This document shows, in pieces, positions 46,687-64,000 of a stretch of 64,000 bases of DNA. The DNA lies in assembly GCA_038503065.1 (NCBI GenBank), contig JBCAMK010000001.1:1612001-1676000 (forward strand). The letters are read 5' to 3'. Position 1 is the first letter of the stretch. Every line of letters starts with the position of its first letter. Below the pieces are notes generated by a model. That model ran no database searches. It had not been told where the DNA came from and was given only the letters and a program-made list of their open reading frames with translations. Source of the stretch: Paragyromitra xinjiangensis (lineage: Eukaryota > Ascomycota > Pezizomycetes > Pezizales > Discinaceae). The translations under genes and the position numbers were made by a program.

Positions 46687-46904
46687 AGTTGGAGATATCG
46701 GCTTCGCCGATAGGATGTCGGATAAATGGATAAGCGAGTTAGTTCAATTTGTAATAGTAGATAGTTTAGTCCGTCGACCCAAGCTACAAAGAACACACAG
46801 TAGTAAAGAGGACGGGATATAAATACTCTTGCATTGGACGTCAATTCCAGTCGATCATCGTCGAGGAAGAAACGGCGCTTATCGATATTATTTTGTTACC
46901 AACA
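46687..46904 (+). repeat. Probable 5' LTR of the Ty3/gypsy element
   Basis: The segment runs from AGTTGG (expected TGTTGG) to CCAACA and holds GATATAAATACTC, a good TATA box, at about 46818, 80-90 bases before the end. There is no target duplication immediately around it (GTCGG versus TACTT), which is expected if internal element sequence follows. The match of ends, the TATA position and the gypsy gag beyond the inserted transposon support the call. The 3' LTR lies outside the window, so identity cannot be verified. Confidence 0.55.
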
Positions 46905-47340
46905 TACTTTGTTAAAGTGATAAATTCTCCATCGTATCAAGTTGTTTAGCGTAAACGCGCTTCAACACTCGTGTCCTTCCTATTGAGAAAGTTCTTTCAA
47001 TGGAACAGCCCGACCTTATCTCGCTTAAACTATCGTTCTGCTTTAATGCGATTCATGAAGTTGTCGGGACGTCTGTATTGTGCTACGGATAGTAGCCGGT
47101 CGAGTTACAGAGTCTAGAGAAGCTATCTAAGCTTCGCTAGAATTCAGTAGTGGTGCGAAGTACCGTCTTACAAGATATATTGATAGGCGTATCAATACAG
47201 GGATCTGTTCGACACCACGAGTGAGTCGCGCGATACGGAGATGTCAGACCACCTTGACATTCTCCAAGACGGAGACCCCCGTCATCAACTTACTACTAGG
47301 TCAACTGGCCGAGTAGCAAGTATCACATCCTCACAGCGTC
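46905..47340 (+). other. Internal 5' leader of the Ty3/gypsy element
   Basis: Non-coding sequence between the probable LTR and the inserted 9-kb DNA element. It resumes at 56417 on the other side of that element after the TC duplication. No clear tRNA-complementary primer site was recognised at 46905. Confidence 0.4.
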
Positions 47341-47430
47341 CATCAGCAAAAATTGATAAAGCCGCCCCGGCCGCCTGGAGGTCGGAGCGGTCGGGCGGAA
47401 TGTTACCCTTCTGTTAGGTTGCTGCTGCAT
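47341..47430 (+). repeat. Left terminal region of the 9-kb transposon
   Basis: It starts with CATCAGCAAAAATTGATAAA and contains GGCCGCCTGGAGGTCGG, a form of the dispersed palindrome, then CGGGCGGAATGTTACCC. Read in reverse, bases 60476-60565 are almost the same sequence, with only a few substitutions visible, so this end type is shared with the 1.67-kb element. Confidence 0.85.
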
Positions 47431-60565: not shown

Positions 60566-61434
60566 TGTGGCAGGCGCGGGACAAGCCTTTACTAATAGTA
60601 TTACCATGATTATGGGCAATAATCATACAAGCACGATAGCGTGTGAGATTGGACCTGTCGAGGCTGGGTTAGACATAATAGTGCCAGGGGGTTGGTGGTT
60701 GACGGATCATCGGTTGAGCAACCCTTACGACCACGCAAACTGGAAGTTCGAATCTCGCAGTTCTTTGTGGAGTCTTTCGGATGACGGCTCCTCTTAATGA
60801 GTTCGATCATATCGAGTATGACGAATGAGCAGGCTGGATGAAAATGCAAAGATAATCGGAATGGTAACCGCGGTCGAAGAAGAATTAGAGTTACTCAAGC
60901 AGCTCCCTCCTCTACCACCGATTTGTGGATCTTTTTGGTGCACTCCAAAGCCTCTACGAAGAGCCATTTGATCGTGCGATCGACCTCGAACCGGGACAAC
61001 CGCCGTGGGGTCCAATATATGGCTTTCGGAGAAGGAACTCGAGGTTCTCCGTAAGTACTTGGACAAAATGGTGGCGAAGGAAAATCAGACCCAGCAAGTC
61101 ACCTGCAGGATCTCCCATATTGTTCGCGCCGAAGCAAACGAGGCTACGACATGCGTAGACTACCGTGGCAGAATAAGGAATAGCCGATGAAGAACCGGTA
61201 CCCCCTGCCGCTAATGTCCGAGCTTCGTGATAGGGTGAACGGGGCGAAAGTCTTCACCAAACTGGACCTCAAGGACGGTTTTCACCTGATCAGGATTAAA
61301 GAAGGAGACGAGTGGAAAACTGCATTCCGCACTCGTTATGGCCACTTTGAGTACACCGTTATGCCTTTCGGGTTGGCTAACGCGCCAGCTTCCTTCCAAG
61401 ATATGATGCAACAGGTTCTCCGTGAATTCTTGGA
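60566..61434 (+). pseudogene. Ty3/gypsy protease end, linker and start of reverse transcriptase, degenerate
   Basis: It continues the protease in frame from GTG at 60567 (AGQAFTNSITMIMGNN, GLDIIVPGGWW). The linker to reverse transcriptase has frameshifts near 61020 (FGPIYG-type text changing frame into LSEKELEVLRKYLDKMV) and near 61180. From 61187 the polymerase palm is open: NRYPLPLMSELRDRV, AKVFTKLDLKDGFHLI, and AFRTRYGHFEYTVMPFGLAN, with the first catalytic aspartate in LDLKDGFH. It breaks at 61434 at the inserted 2.31-kb element. The frameshifts show the polyprotein was already dead or has since decayed. Confidence 0.85.
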
Positions 61435-63748
61435 CATCAGTAAAAATAATTAACGCCTCCAGGAGCATGGGCATGTCTCCCGGGGAGGCAATCTCCTCCA
61501 GGTGCTCCGTGCGCTCCCAGGGCGCCTGGAGGCACGAGCGCCCGACCTGCATCTCCTGGAGGATATGGCTTCTTCCGAGATATGCTGTATACTCCATGAG
61601 CCAAAGGCACGATGCTGAGCCTCCATCCCACTCCTGGACCTCAACACCACTGCAAGAGACTCCCTGAATCGCAGACTATTGGATCTCGCTTAGGGACTTA
61701 GAAGAATTTCTTTCAACTCCCCGTTGCTGCCCCAACCCACCCACGCCGCCCCTATTCACCCACCCCTTTTAACCCCCTGAGCAATGCCCATACCTCCTCC
61801 TCTCCTACATCTCCACCATAGACGCGTCGTTTTGTACAGTAGCTAACTCTTGATAGGCCCCGTCACTCCCCTTGCTGAATCCACGGCTAAATCAACTGCT
61901 CGCCTGCCTCCAAATCCCGTGCTTTCCAGCTTCCAAATCGACTGCTTGCTTGCCTCCGAATTGACTCCTGAATAGACTCCGAATCGGCTGTTTCTAAACC
62001 TCCGAATCCTGCTGAATTGACTGCTGAATTGACTCCCGAATTGACTCCGAATCTACTGCTGAATAGGCTGCTGAATAGACTCCTGAATAGACTCCGAATC
62101 GGCTGTTTCCGAGCCTCTGAATCCACTGCTGAATCCACTGCTGAATTGACTCCTGAATAGACTCCGAATCGGCTGTTTCTAAGCCTCTGAATCCTGCTGA
62201 ATTGACTGCTGAATTGACTCCGAATACTGCCGAATTGACTGCTGAATTGACTCCTGAATAGACTCCGAATCGGCTGTTTCTAAGCCTCCAAATCCACTGC
62301 CGAATAGACTCCTGAATTGACTCCGAATCGGCTGTTTCTGAGCCTCCGAATCCTGCCGAATTGACTGCCAAATTGACTCCTGAATAGACTCCGAATCGGC
62401 TGTTTCCGAGCCTCTGAATCCACTGCTGAATCCACTGCTGAATTGACTCCTGAATAGCCTCCGAATCGGCTGTTTCCAAGCCTCTGAATCCCATGCTTTC
62501 CTGCCTCCGAATAGGCTGTTTCCGAGCCTCTGAATCCACTGCTGAATTGACTCCTGAATTGACTCCGAATCGGGTGTTTCTGAGCCCCCGAATCCACTGC
62601 TGAATTGACTCCTGAATAGGCTCCGAATTGACTCCCGAATAGACTCCGAATTGACTCCCGAATAGACTCTGGAATTGACTGCTGAATTGACTGCCGAATA
62701 GACTCCTGAATCGACTCCGAATCGGCTGTTTCTGAGCCTCCGAATCCTGCTGAATTGACTGCTGAATAGACTCCTGAATCGGCTGTTTCTGAGCCTCCGA
62801 ATCCACTGCTGAATAGACTCCTGAATAGACTCCGAATTGACTGCTGAATTGACTGCTGAATAGACTCCTGAATAGACTCCGAATCGGCTGTTTCTGAGCC
62901 TCCGAATCCACTGCCGAATAGACTCCTGAATAGACTCCGAATCGGCTGTTTCTAAGCCTCCAAATCCACTGCCGAATAGACTCCTGAATTGACTCCGAAT
63001 CGGCTGTTTCTGAGCCTCCGAATCCTGCCGAATTGACTGCCAAATTGACTCCTGAATAGACTCCGAATCGGCTGTTTCTGAGCCTCCGAATCCTGCTGAA
63101 TTGACTGCTGAATTGACTCCTGAATAGACTCCGAATCGGCTGTTTCTAAGCCTCTGAATCCTGCTGAATTGACTGCTGAATTGACTCCGAATACTGCCGA
63201 ATTGACTGCTGAATTGACTCCTGAATAGACTCCGAATCGGCTGTTTCTAAGCCTCTGAATCCCGTGCTTTCCTGCCTCCGAATCGGCTGTTTCTGAGCCT
63301 CCGAATCCACGGCTGAATTGGCTGTTTGCCTGCCTCCGAATCGACTCCACGGCAAGCTCAGCAGCAGGCTCGGAATAGGAGGAGTAGGATGCAGTAGGGC
63401 AGGCAGGAGGATGCGGGGGCTCGTTCGATGTATAGAGATCCTTTAGATAGTCAATAATAATATTCACAATATTCTCCAAAACTTGAGTGACAGCGTGACA
63501 TCAGTGAATTGAGAAGGGTGACAGGTGTAACTTATGCTTCTCCACAGCTCTCCATGGCACGCTGGGAGCGCCTATATCGATCTCCTAGAGTCTCCTGGAG
63601 TGCCTGCTGCTCCTCCGTGTGCCTCCCTAAGGAGGTTGGTCGCGAATCGCTCCTCCAGGTAGGCACATATTCTCCACGGGTCTCCCAAGCCTCCTGGCGA
63701 TCCCGAGCCTCCTGGAGCTCAGGGAGAAAATAATTCATTTTGCTGATG
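61435..63748. mobile_element. Non-autonomous DNA element of 2.31 kb, inserted in the gypsy reverse transcriptase
   Basis: The ends read inward as CATCAGTAAAAATAATT (left) and CATCAGCAAAATGAATT (right), flanked by GA at 61433-61434 and 63749-63750. Removing it and one GA joins the reverse transcriptase in frame just before its YIDDIL catalytic motif. It has no transposase. The arms are rich in CTCCTGGAGG/CCTCCAGG inverted repeats (61450-61570 and 63580-63725), then a C/T-rich stretch, a long tandem array (about 61960-63360) and an AT-rich segment near 63430-63475. The overall plan is that of the 1.67-kb element, but the ends differ after the first 12 bases, so it is a separate family. Confidence 0.85.
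61960..63360. repeat. Minisatellite-like tandem array in the 2.31-kb element
   Basis: About 1.4 kb is made of short words repeated with variation: CTGAATTGACT, CCTGAATAGACT, CCGAATCGGCTGTTTC and TGAGCCTCCGAATC. They combine into higher-order units of roughly 50-110 bases; for example the passage near 62260-62400 is nearly repeated near 62920-63070. A minus-strand frame stays open from 63043 to 61994 with low-complexity codons, probably because the array lacks stops in that frame. Confidence 0.88.
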
Positions 63749-64000
63749 GACCAGGGTGTCGTTGTTTACATCGATGATATCCTCATTTACTCTAGCTCCC
63801 AGGAGGAACATGAGGTCCTGGTAACCAAAGTCTTGCAGCGGTTGCAAGATGAGGGACTAGCCGTAGCCATAAACAAGAGTATCTTTCATACCAAGGAAGT
63901 TGAATTCTTGGGCTACATTATCTCAGACAAAGGTGTGGCCATGTCGTTGGCAAAGGTTGAATCAATCCTATCGTGGGAAACCCCGAAGAGCGTTCGCGAC
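63749..64000 (+). pseudogene. Ty3/gypsy reverse transcriptase, continuation, cut by the window edge
   Basis: Directly after the GA duplication the frame gives QGVVVYIDDILIYS, the catalytic Y-x-D-D motif of reverse transcriptase, then VLQRLQDEGLAVAINKS, FHTKEVEFLGYIISDKGV and VESILSWETPKSVRD, the usual palm/thumb region of Ty3/gypsy. It is open to the last base. RNase H, integrase and the 3' LTR should lie to the right of the window. Confidence 0.92.

Follow-up and report, generated by a model that had tools for sequence, protein, structure and literature searches.

Plavaka transposons are placed together with CACTA in the CMCT clade, and the available text of Kojima 2025 (PMC12730594) describes PlavakaB families with CATCA..TGATG ends and target duplications of 2-3 bp. 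Recognition of a transposon's own DNA by a protein that it encodes is described in two other systems. In CACTA, each family has its own subterminal repeats, to which fast-diverging element proteins bind (PMC2613891, in the part available). The VANC proteins of VANDAL elements bind to motifs that are dense and family-specific and that grow through tandem repeats, with methylation loss as the effect (PMC5735166, in the part available). The present report concerns three DNA elements, named element 1, 2 and 3, which interrupt a gypsy retrotransposon of Paragyromitra xinjiangensis. They lie in a window of 64,000 bases, C1:1612001-1676000 (C1 being contig JBCAMK010000001.1), in a 48.2-Mb assembly of 22 contigs.

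The three insertions are PlavakaB cut-and-paste transposons. They resemble the families of Kojima in their Plavaka transposase, CATCA..TGATG ends and 2-3 bp duplications. Those families were reconstructed in Agaricomycotina, and within the text available a DUF6532 or tri-helical partner protein, dispersed palindromes and cassette cores are features of the elements described here only. The class is already known; the partner genes, the dispersed palindromes and the shared cores are added here. Compared with an earlier, sequence-only reading of the window, the superfamily and the division into two families are also new. In the literature searched, where subscription journals are thinly covered, no description was found of divergent tri-helical and DUF6532 partner genes, of dispersed palindromes in Plavaka, or of cores shared behind different ends. 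It is probable that one explanation covers these features, namely PlavakaB transposons with family-specific ends, with palindromes that would be bound by an element-encoded dimer, and with short cassettes that would be mobilised in trans.

Class, ends and target duplications

All three elements have the termini 5'-CATCA..TGATG-3'. The transposase of element 1 matches PF18759 over two exons, and CPVC and HLLTH, seen by eye ahead of TEVGEASH in 53871-55457, fit the C(2)C and H(3-4)H motifs of PlavakaB between the second D and the last E. Together with the ends and the duplications these features define the class. The C-terminal frame of the transposase is broken in element 1 and open in the related copy L030. 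Named relatives of the protein were found in Maublancomyces gigas (63%), Morchella importuna (48%) and Tuber brumale (42%). Other classes were considered. PlavakaA requires TGT..ACA termini, and CACTA/En-Spm requires CAC..GTG termini and a 3-bp duplication; the ends found here are CATCAG and the duplications 2 bp. Regarding TET+ Plavaka, no PF12851 was found in element 1, and each of the four PF12851 matches in the genome is at least 70 kb away from the closest PF18759 match.

Elements 1 and 2 have common ends (97% over 92 bp, 94% over 53 bp), and element 2 is therefore a non-autonomous relative of element 1. The ends of element 3 match another full-length element, L094 (C2:2876645-2885974), at 88% and 82%. 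Elements 2 and 3 are accordingly filed, by their ends, as non-autonomous PlavakaB. The sequence-only reading had treated the three insertions as related by their ends; the CATCAG termini are indeed shared, but the elements fall into two families, elements 1 and 2 in one and element 3 in the other.

Genome-wide, CATCAGYAAAA occurred 546+518 times against 19+22 for the reversed pattern, and such ends are therefore far beyond chance. Neighbouring plus and minus ends closer than 13 kb were paired, using exact CATCAGYAAAA ends up to C4:291857 (194 ends). This gave 63 pairs, 44 with a 2-bp duplication, one with a 3-bp duplication and 18 with neither; in mismatched pairings 8.2% had a 2-bp duplication. 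A duplication of a length other than 2 bp was thus seen in one of 63 pairs, and it is within the published 2-3 bp. The sizes of the 44 pairs were 1.4-2.3 kb in 31, 9.1-9.3 kb in four, less than 0.7 kb in eight and 3.6 kb in one.

Some further CATCAG-ended structures were observed. L028 (906-1154) and L037 (159-407) contain miniature elements of 249 bp with these CATCAG ends, whose first 30 bases are likewise the same at each end. A 376-bp class exists too, and one pair of this class has a 3-bp duplication. At C1:2601042/2601043 two element ends that face apart adjoin directly, with no base in between. Near a short PlavakaB element at C1:3433111, which has ends of the L093 type, a TET/JBP-like match under the cut-off (C1:3431858-3432259) was observed at a distance of about 0.9 kb.

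Empty sites in other gypsy copies

The element coordinates, the inward ends CATCAG(C/T)AAAA and the duplications TC, TG and GA of the sequence-only reading were all exact on re-reading the sequence. Its borders were compared with other copies of the same gypsy, in each of which the two flanks were located separately and never joined. The search for insertion 3 gave 19 matches, one being the window and two (74% identity) too distant; in all 16 usable copies the flanks abut with one GA, including L052, where the two bases after the junction differ. The site of insertion 2 was likewise empty in 16 of 16 other copies (17 matches, one being the window), the flanks abutting with one TG. Of 102 candidates for insertion 1, 40 were scored; one was the window and 23 covered only the long terminal repeat (LTR), short of the junction. 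In 14 of the 16 usable copies the flanks meet with a single TC, and in the other two the junction deviates by 1-2 bases. The borders agree with these empty sites at all three junctions. Because other copies of the same gypsy are empty at the insertion points, the proposed order, gypsy first and DNA elements later, stands. On the two sides of insertion 3 the RVT_1 pieces correspond to adjoining stretches of the profile (62-142 and 148-205).

Partner genes

Two genes divergent from the transposase were found in element 1, encoding a tri-helical-domain protein and a DUF6532 protein. The same linkage was observed in the genome. A Plavaka search in which 123 of 168 candidates were scored gave 99 merged loci; a divergent DUF6532 gene lay within 9 kb upstream in 52 of them, and the other three arrangements occurred four, four and two times. 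Starting from the 82 merged DUF6532 loci, the nearest neighbour was a divergent Plavaka gene in 47, and another arrangement was present within 9 kb in eight. All 11 genome hits of PF24465, the tri-helical domain, were divergent from a transposase and 1.5-2.1 kb upstream of it. The gene of element 1 is absent from these 11 hits, so the search misses diverged copies.

Four full elements were compared: element 1, L092, L093 and L094. DUF6532 was identified in element 1 and L092 by direct Pfam match, and for L093 and L094 a hit of the genome search falls within the element. The tri-helical region could be aligned in element 1, L093 and L094, with identities to L093 of 54% for element 1 and 26% for L094; in L092 the protein was recognised by eye. 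In the literature searched DUF6532 was found in a single paper, which co-lists it with Plavaka among the domains of two Ganoderma species, in the part of that source available.

Short elements and shared cores

Twenty short elements of 1.4-2.3 kb were examined, eight of them complete and 12 by both ends and a 91-base middle. The 12 belong to a set of 15 picked for a 2-bp duplication, a length of 1.4-2.3 kb and absence from the leader lists. Behind the ends of six families only two minisatellite cores were found, core A in 15 elements and core B in five. Core A was present behind end families I (the ends of element 1, six elements), II (the ends of L093, six) and III (three), and core B behind families IV (the ends of L094, three), V (C9, one) and VI (C2:2958821, one). 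Searches with the leaders preceding the minisatellites gave 176 first-look candidates for core A, 40 of which were scored, and 35 matches for core B. Internal tandem arrays tied to a DNA transposon are known from non-autonomous elements of the Tetris type (PMC4079207, in the part available); here, instead, one array type is common to elements with unrelated ends.

Since the same cores sit behind different ends, they appear to have moved between families, by recombination or conversion. A rather improbable alternative is that the cores are conserved as a functional gene or RNA, and that only the ends diverged with their transposases, with no exchange. In families I, II and IV the core always points the same way with respect to the transposase-3' end, and gene-like signals were noted in the leader and the 3' part, both by eye, as such conservation might predict. 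The core A leader, however, is 90-95% identical between families I and II, near the 93-95% observed within family I, while the ends of these families agree no better than shuffled sequence and their transposase pieces are at 74%. Moreover, the element C9ins has only the array in common with other core B elements. The repeat units, determined by Tandem Repeats Finder (TRF), are mostly not multiples of three, making a conserved protein from the core unlikely. Exchange of cores between families is the preferred explanation, and the short elements would then be cassettes mobilised in trans by family-specific transposases.

Dispersed palindromes

Two palindromic motifs were read from the four full elements. 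Sites of type X, CGRCYT-N5-ARGYCG (17 bp, up to one mismatch), number 16 in element 1 and 27 in L093, compared to about 0.3 in shuffles. Sites of type Y, AGGATR-N5-YATCCT, number 22 in L092 and 28 in L094, with no X sites in either, and the shuffles gave 0.1-0.25. The shuffles were first-order Markov resamples (overall 0.1-0.35 sites per full element). The first 46.4 kb of the window contain 0 and 1 of the two site types. When spacers of 0-12 were tried with the same half-sites, only a spacer of 5 was populated (16, 27, 28 and 22 sites), each other spacer giving 0-2. In loci outside the motif derivation the spacer of 5 gave 19 X and 18 Y sites, and no other spacer gave more than 1 and 4. Of these loci, L037 resembles a training locus at about 99%, and L020 resembles L016 to the same degree. 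In 115 kb of overlapping gypsy control loci there were 20 X and 2 Y sites; 14 of the 20 were in loci with a PlavakaB insertion, four in L057, which holds a CATCAG end, and two in the overlapping L055 and L071.

The sites follow the phylogeny of the transposase. Among transposase loci cut for the best 30 of 125 Plavaka matches, 14 had at least five Y sites, six had at least five X sites and 10 had at most one of either. This division corresponds to the three groups of the transposase tree, a tree without support values. The clade without dispersed palindromes (L019, L021, L023, L027, L028, L029, L031, L033, L034 and L036) has one conserved CTCAGTN5ACTGAG position.

In clade Y the sites are under constraint. 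L092 and L094 have 16 of 29 site positions in common, and the arms are 87.1% identical, compared to 65.5% for the spacers and 70.5% for the background; none of 2000 rolled masks was as high as the arms. In three Y transposase loci the arms were 96.4% identical versus 88.6% (52 of 2000 rolled masks).

The distribution of the sites bears on their possible role. It seems unlikely that they are TnpA-type cis sites required for transposition, like those of CACTA but spread further inward. The common CMCT clade (PMC12730594) and the family-specific subterminal repeats of CACTA, read there by an element-encoded protein (PMC2613891), would suit such a role, each source being available in part, as would the higher site density in the terminal 1.2 kb of three of the four full elements. 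In element 1, however, there are fewer sites per kb at the ends than inside, and the interior, exons included, still has 1.9-2.6 sites per kb. Furthermore, three complete Y-family short elements hold 0-1 sites, yet core B leaders number 35. Compared to CACTA/En-Spm, the sites here span the whole element and its exons and have a fixed 6-5-6 symmetry, and their binder is putative.

A second possibility, somewhat doubtful but to be taken seriously, is that the palindromes are anti-silencing sites, at which an element protein bound along the element would hold it free of methylation, the part that VANC plays for VANDAL. In favour of this, the motifs are dense and family-specific and extend over the element. 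The subterminal tandem repeats of L093 (131-148 bp), L094 (56-66 bp) and L092 (66-67 bp) contain one site per unit, as does the 40-bp core of C4, in the manner of VANC targets evolving through tandem repeats (PMC5735166). In the Pezizomycete Tuber the genome is highly methylated and transposons carry methylation, according to the part of that source available. The VANC21 sites, on the other hand, are 9 bp, not palindromic and mainly non-coding (PMC5735166, in the part available). The sites here run end to end and many are in open reading frames (ORFs), roughly in proportion or somewhat below it (7/16, 12/27 and 15/28 versus ORF fractions of 0.58, 0.57 and 0.64). VANDAL and the elements here are alike in short family-specific motifs, high density and tandem-repeat amplification; VANDAL belongs to another superfamily and another host kingdom, and the site here is a palindromic 17-mer. 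A role in expression or anti-silencing is slightly favoured, because core B copies without Y sites make it less likely that transposition strictly requires the sites in cis.

Insertion preference and the host element

The sequence-only reading had suggested either a preference for this retroelement or a burst of activity. In the stretch equivalent to 47340-61235, a 3.19-kb interval, three of 16 other gypsy copies have their own PlavakaB insertion at other positions (C3:970015, C4:1695526 and C9:411502), versus 0.54 expected under uniform scatter (P 0.018). One further copy has an insertion without exact CATCAGYAAAA ends (C3:2485292-2498690), its size of about 11 kb being read from interval lengths between flank matches. 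A fourth CATCAG-type insertion of the window copy, C1:1679262-1681062 with the duplication AA, lies beyond the window inside the 3' LTR. With the window copy, which was chosen for its insertions, five were seen versus 0.58 expected (17 x 3.19 kb). The suggestion thus holds as an excess over uniform scatter; a specific taste for this gypsy is not established, since accumulation in repeat-rich islands explains the excess equally well. PlavakaB ends are clustered generally (101 ends on C1 in 20 of 43 bins of 100 kb), many insertions are elsewhere, and the duplicated dinucleotides are only weakly biased relative to window composition (P 0.016). Even with four insertions in one copy and three in others, it is therefore very improbable that PlavakaB specifically targets this gypsy element.

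The coordinates of the features are given in Table 1. The start of the gypsy had been placed at 46687; the LTR begins 241 bases earlier, as GTTCA flanks both LTRs, and the element extends beyond the window end. The two LTRs (46446-47172 and L091 2538-3261) differ by 17 substitutions over 709 aligned positions, with 20 gap letters. Several other gypsy copies are nevertheless 100% identical to this one over 200-base pol pieces. From this comparison a mosaic or conversion history of the host copy is possible. Immediately upstream of the LTR, at 45636-46445, is an ORF which we take to be Copia-type gag-like, and the gypsy may therefore lie inside an older retroelement.

Table 1. Position of the host element, the three PlavakaB insertions and their parts in the window
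Feature	Position	Strand	Remarks
GTTCA, 5-bp duplication of host gypsy, left copy	46441..46445	.	Second copy past the window, after the 3' LTR in L091
5' LTR of host gypsy	46446..47172	+	Starts TGTTATACC; 95% match to the 3' LTR in L091
TC target duplication, left of element 1	47339..47340	.	Sequence, empty sites
Element 1, full-length PlavakaB	47341..56416	+	Clade X, end family I, 9076 bp
Sites CGRCYT-N5-ARGYCG (16, up to 1 mismatch)	47368..56097	.	Starts: 47368, 48367, 48618, 49699, 49901, 50068, 50244, 50451, 50650, 51534, 52155, 52737, 53830, 54465, 54745, 56081
DUF6532 gene	48356..49660	-	PF20149 0.0055 (below cut-off) and 2.3e-10; pieces 49256-49660 (no PF20149 match), 48851-49228 (weak), 48356-48727
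Tri-helical-domain partner protein, 567 aa	50775..52475	-	PF24465 E 4.4e-4, under curated cut-off; region common to L093, L094
Plavaka transposase, two exons	53043..55457	+	Intron near 53818-53870; PF18759 9e-16 and 1.3e-54
TC target duplication, right of element 1	56417..56418	.	Sequence, empty sites
TG target duplication, left of element 2	58898..58899	.	Sequence, empty sites
Element 2, non-autonomous PlavakaB	58900..60565	.	End family I, core A
Core A leader	59084..59356	+	GGGACTTAG..GAATT, C-rich tract, branch-site-like, TTTTAG acceptor-like end; possibly splice-like, by eye
Core A minisatellite	59562..60147	+	Unit about 40 bp; TRF
TG target duplication, right of element 2	60566..60567	.	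Sequence, empty sites
GA target duplication, left of element 3	61433..61434	.	Sequence, empty sites
Element 3, non-autonomous PlavakaB	61435..63748	.	End family IV, core B; ends match clade Y element L094
Core B leader	61678..61866	+	35 genomic matches
Core B minisatellite	61889..63307	+	12, 23, 58 and 68-bp periods among others; TRF
GA target duplication, right of element 3	63749..63750	.	Sequence, empty sites

Proposed mechanism and significance

A DDE-type Plavaka transposase would recognise family-specific ends of about 50-100 bp beginning CATCAGYAAAA, and insertion would proceed through a 2-bp (rarely 3-bp) staggered cut. Full-length elements of about 9.1-9.3 kb encode the transposase and the divergent tri-helical-domain and DUF6532 proteins. 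In two of the three transposase clades the whole element is studded with 17-bp dyads of 6-5-6 geometry and clade-specific sequence. These are most likely bound by an element-encoded dimeric protein, TnpA- or VANC-like, which would mark the element as its own; this marking may act in transposition, in transcription or in relief of silencing. The short elements combine the ends of different families with one of the two minisatellite cores.

A number of observations weigh against this explanation. The 10 of 30 transposase loci without either site type have PF24465 hits beside several of them. A PF24465 gene therefore does not imply such sites, and this clade is the chief unexplained point. The partnership itself has exceptions, as 27 of the 82 merged DUF6532 loci lie more than 9 kb from any Plavaka match, and the partner protein of L093 gave no PF24465 hit and that of L094 aligns at no more than 26%. 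The predicted model of the tri-helical protein was of low confidence (mean pLDDT, predicted local distance difference test, 49) and gave no informative structural match. Arm constraint is weak for the X sites of element 1 and L093 (64.1% versus 58.0%, 103 of 2000 rolled masks), and four X transposase loci show none (55.8 versus 55.0%, 961 of 2000). Four complete core A elements contain 2-7 X sites, but four complete core B elements hold 0-1 sites of either type, so the sites are not needed in cis for core B elements to move. Finally, no full-length partner was identified for end families III, V and VI, and no core match was found in the available stretch of nine other CATCAG-end loci (L001, L002, L007, L012, L017, L023, L038, L056 and L057), which are unpaired ends or short stretches, some beside transposases.

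With these points in mind we tentatively suggest, at a little less than an even chance, that the palindromes serve self-recognition. An element-encoded dimer would read clade-specific 17-bp dyads every few hundred bases, exons included, and thereby keep the element active or shielded from silencing. Its specificity would have switched from CGRCYT to AGGATR between sister clades with the 6-5-6 geometry fixed, and short cassettes would change families by taking new ends.

Few systems have been worked out in detail as regards the recognition of own versus host DNA by transposons and the evolutionary change of this specificity. Here a single genome provides matched pairs in two sister clades (proteins X with sites X, proteins Y with sites Y) and, in the third clade, a site-free control, and binding, silencing and co-evolution are therefore directly testable. 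The linkage to transposons gives DUF6532, so far an uncharacterised family, a setting as a partner gene. As the shared cores suggest, non-autonomous cassettes are able to persist longer than a given end family, which bears on how such elements are classified and dated.

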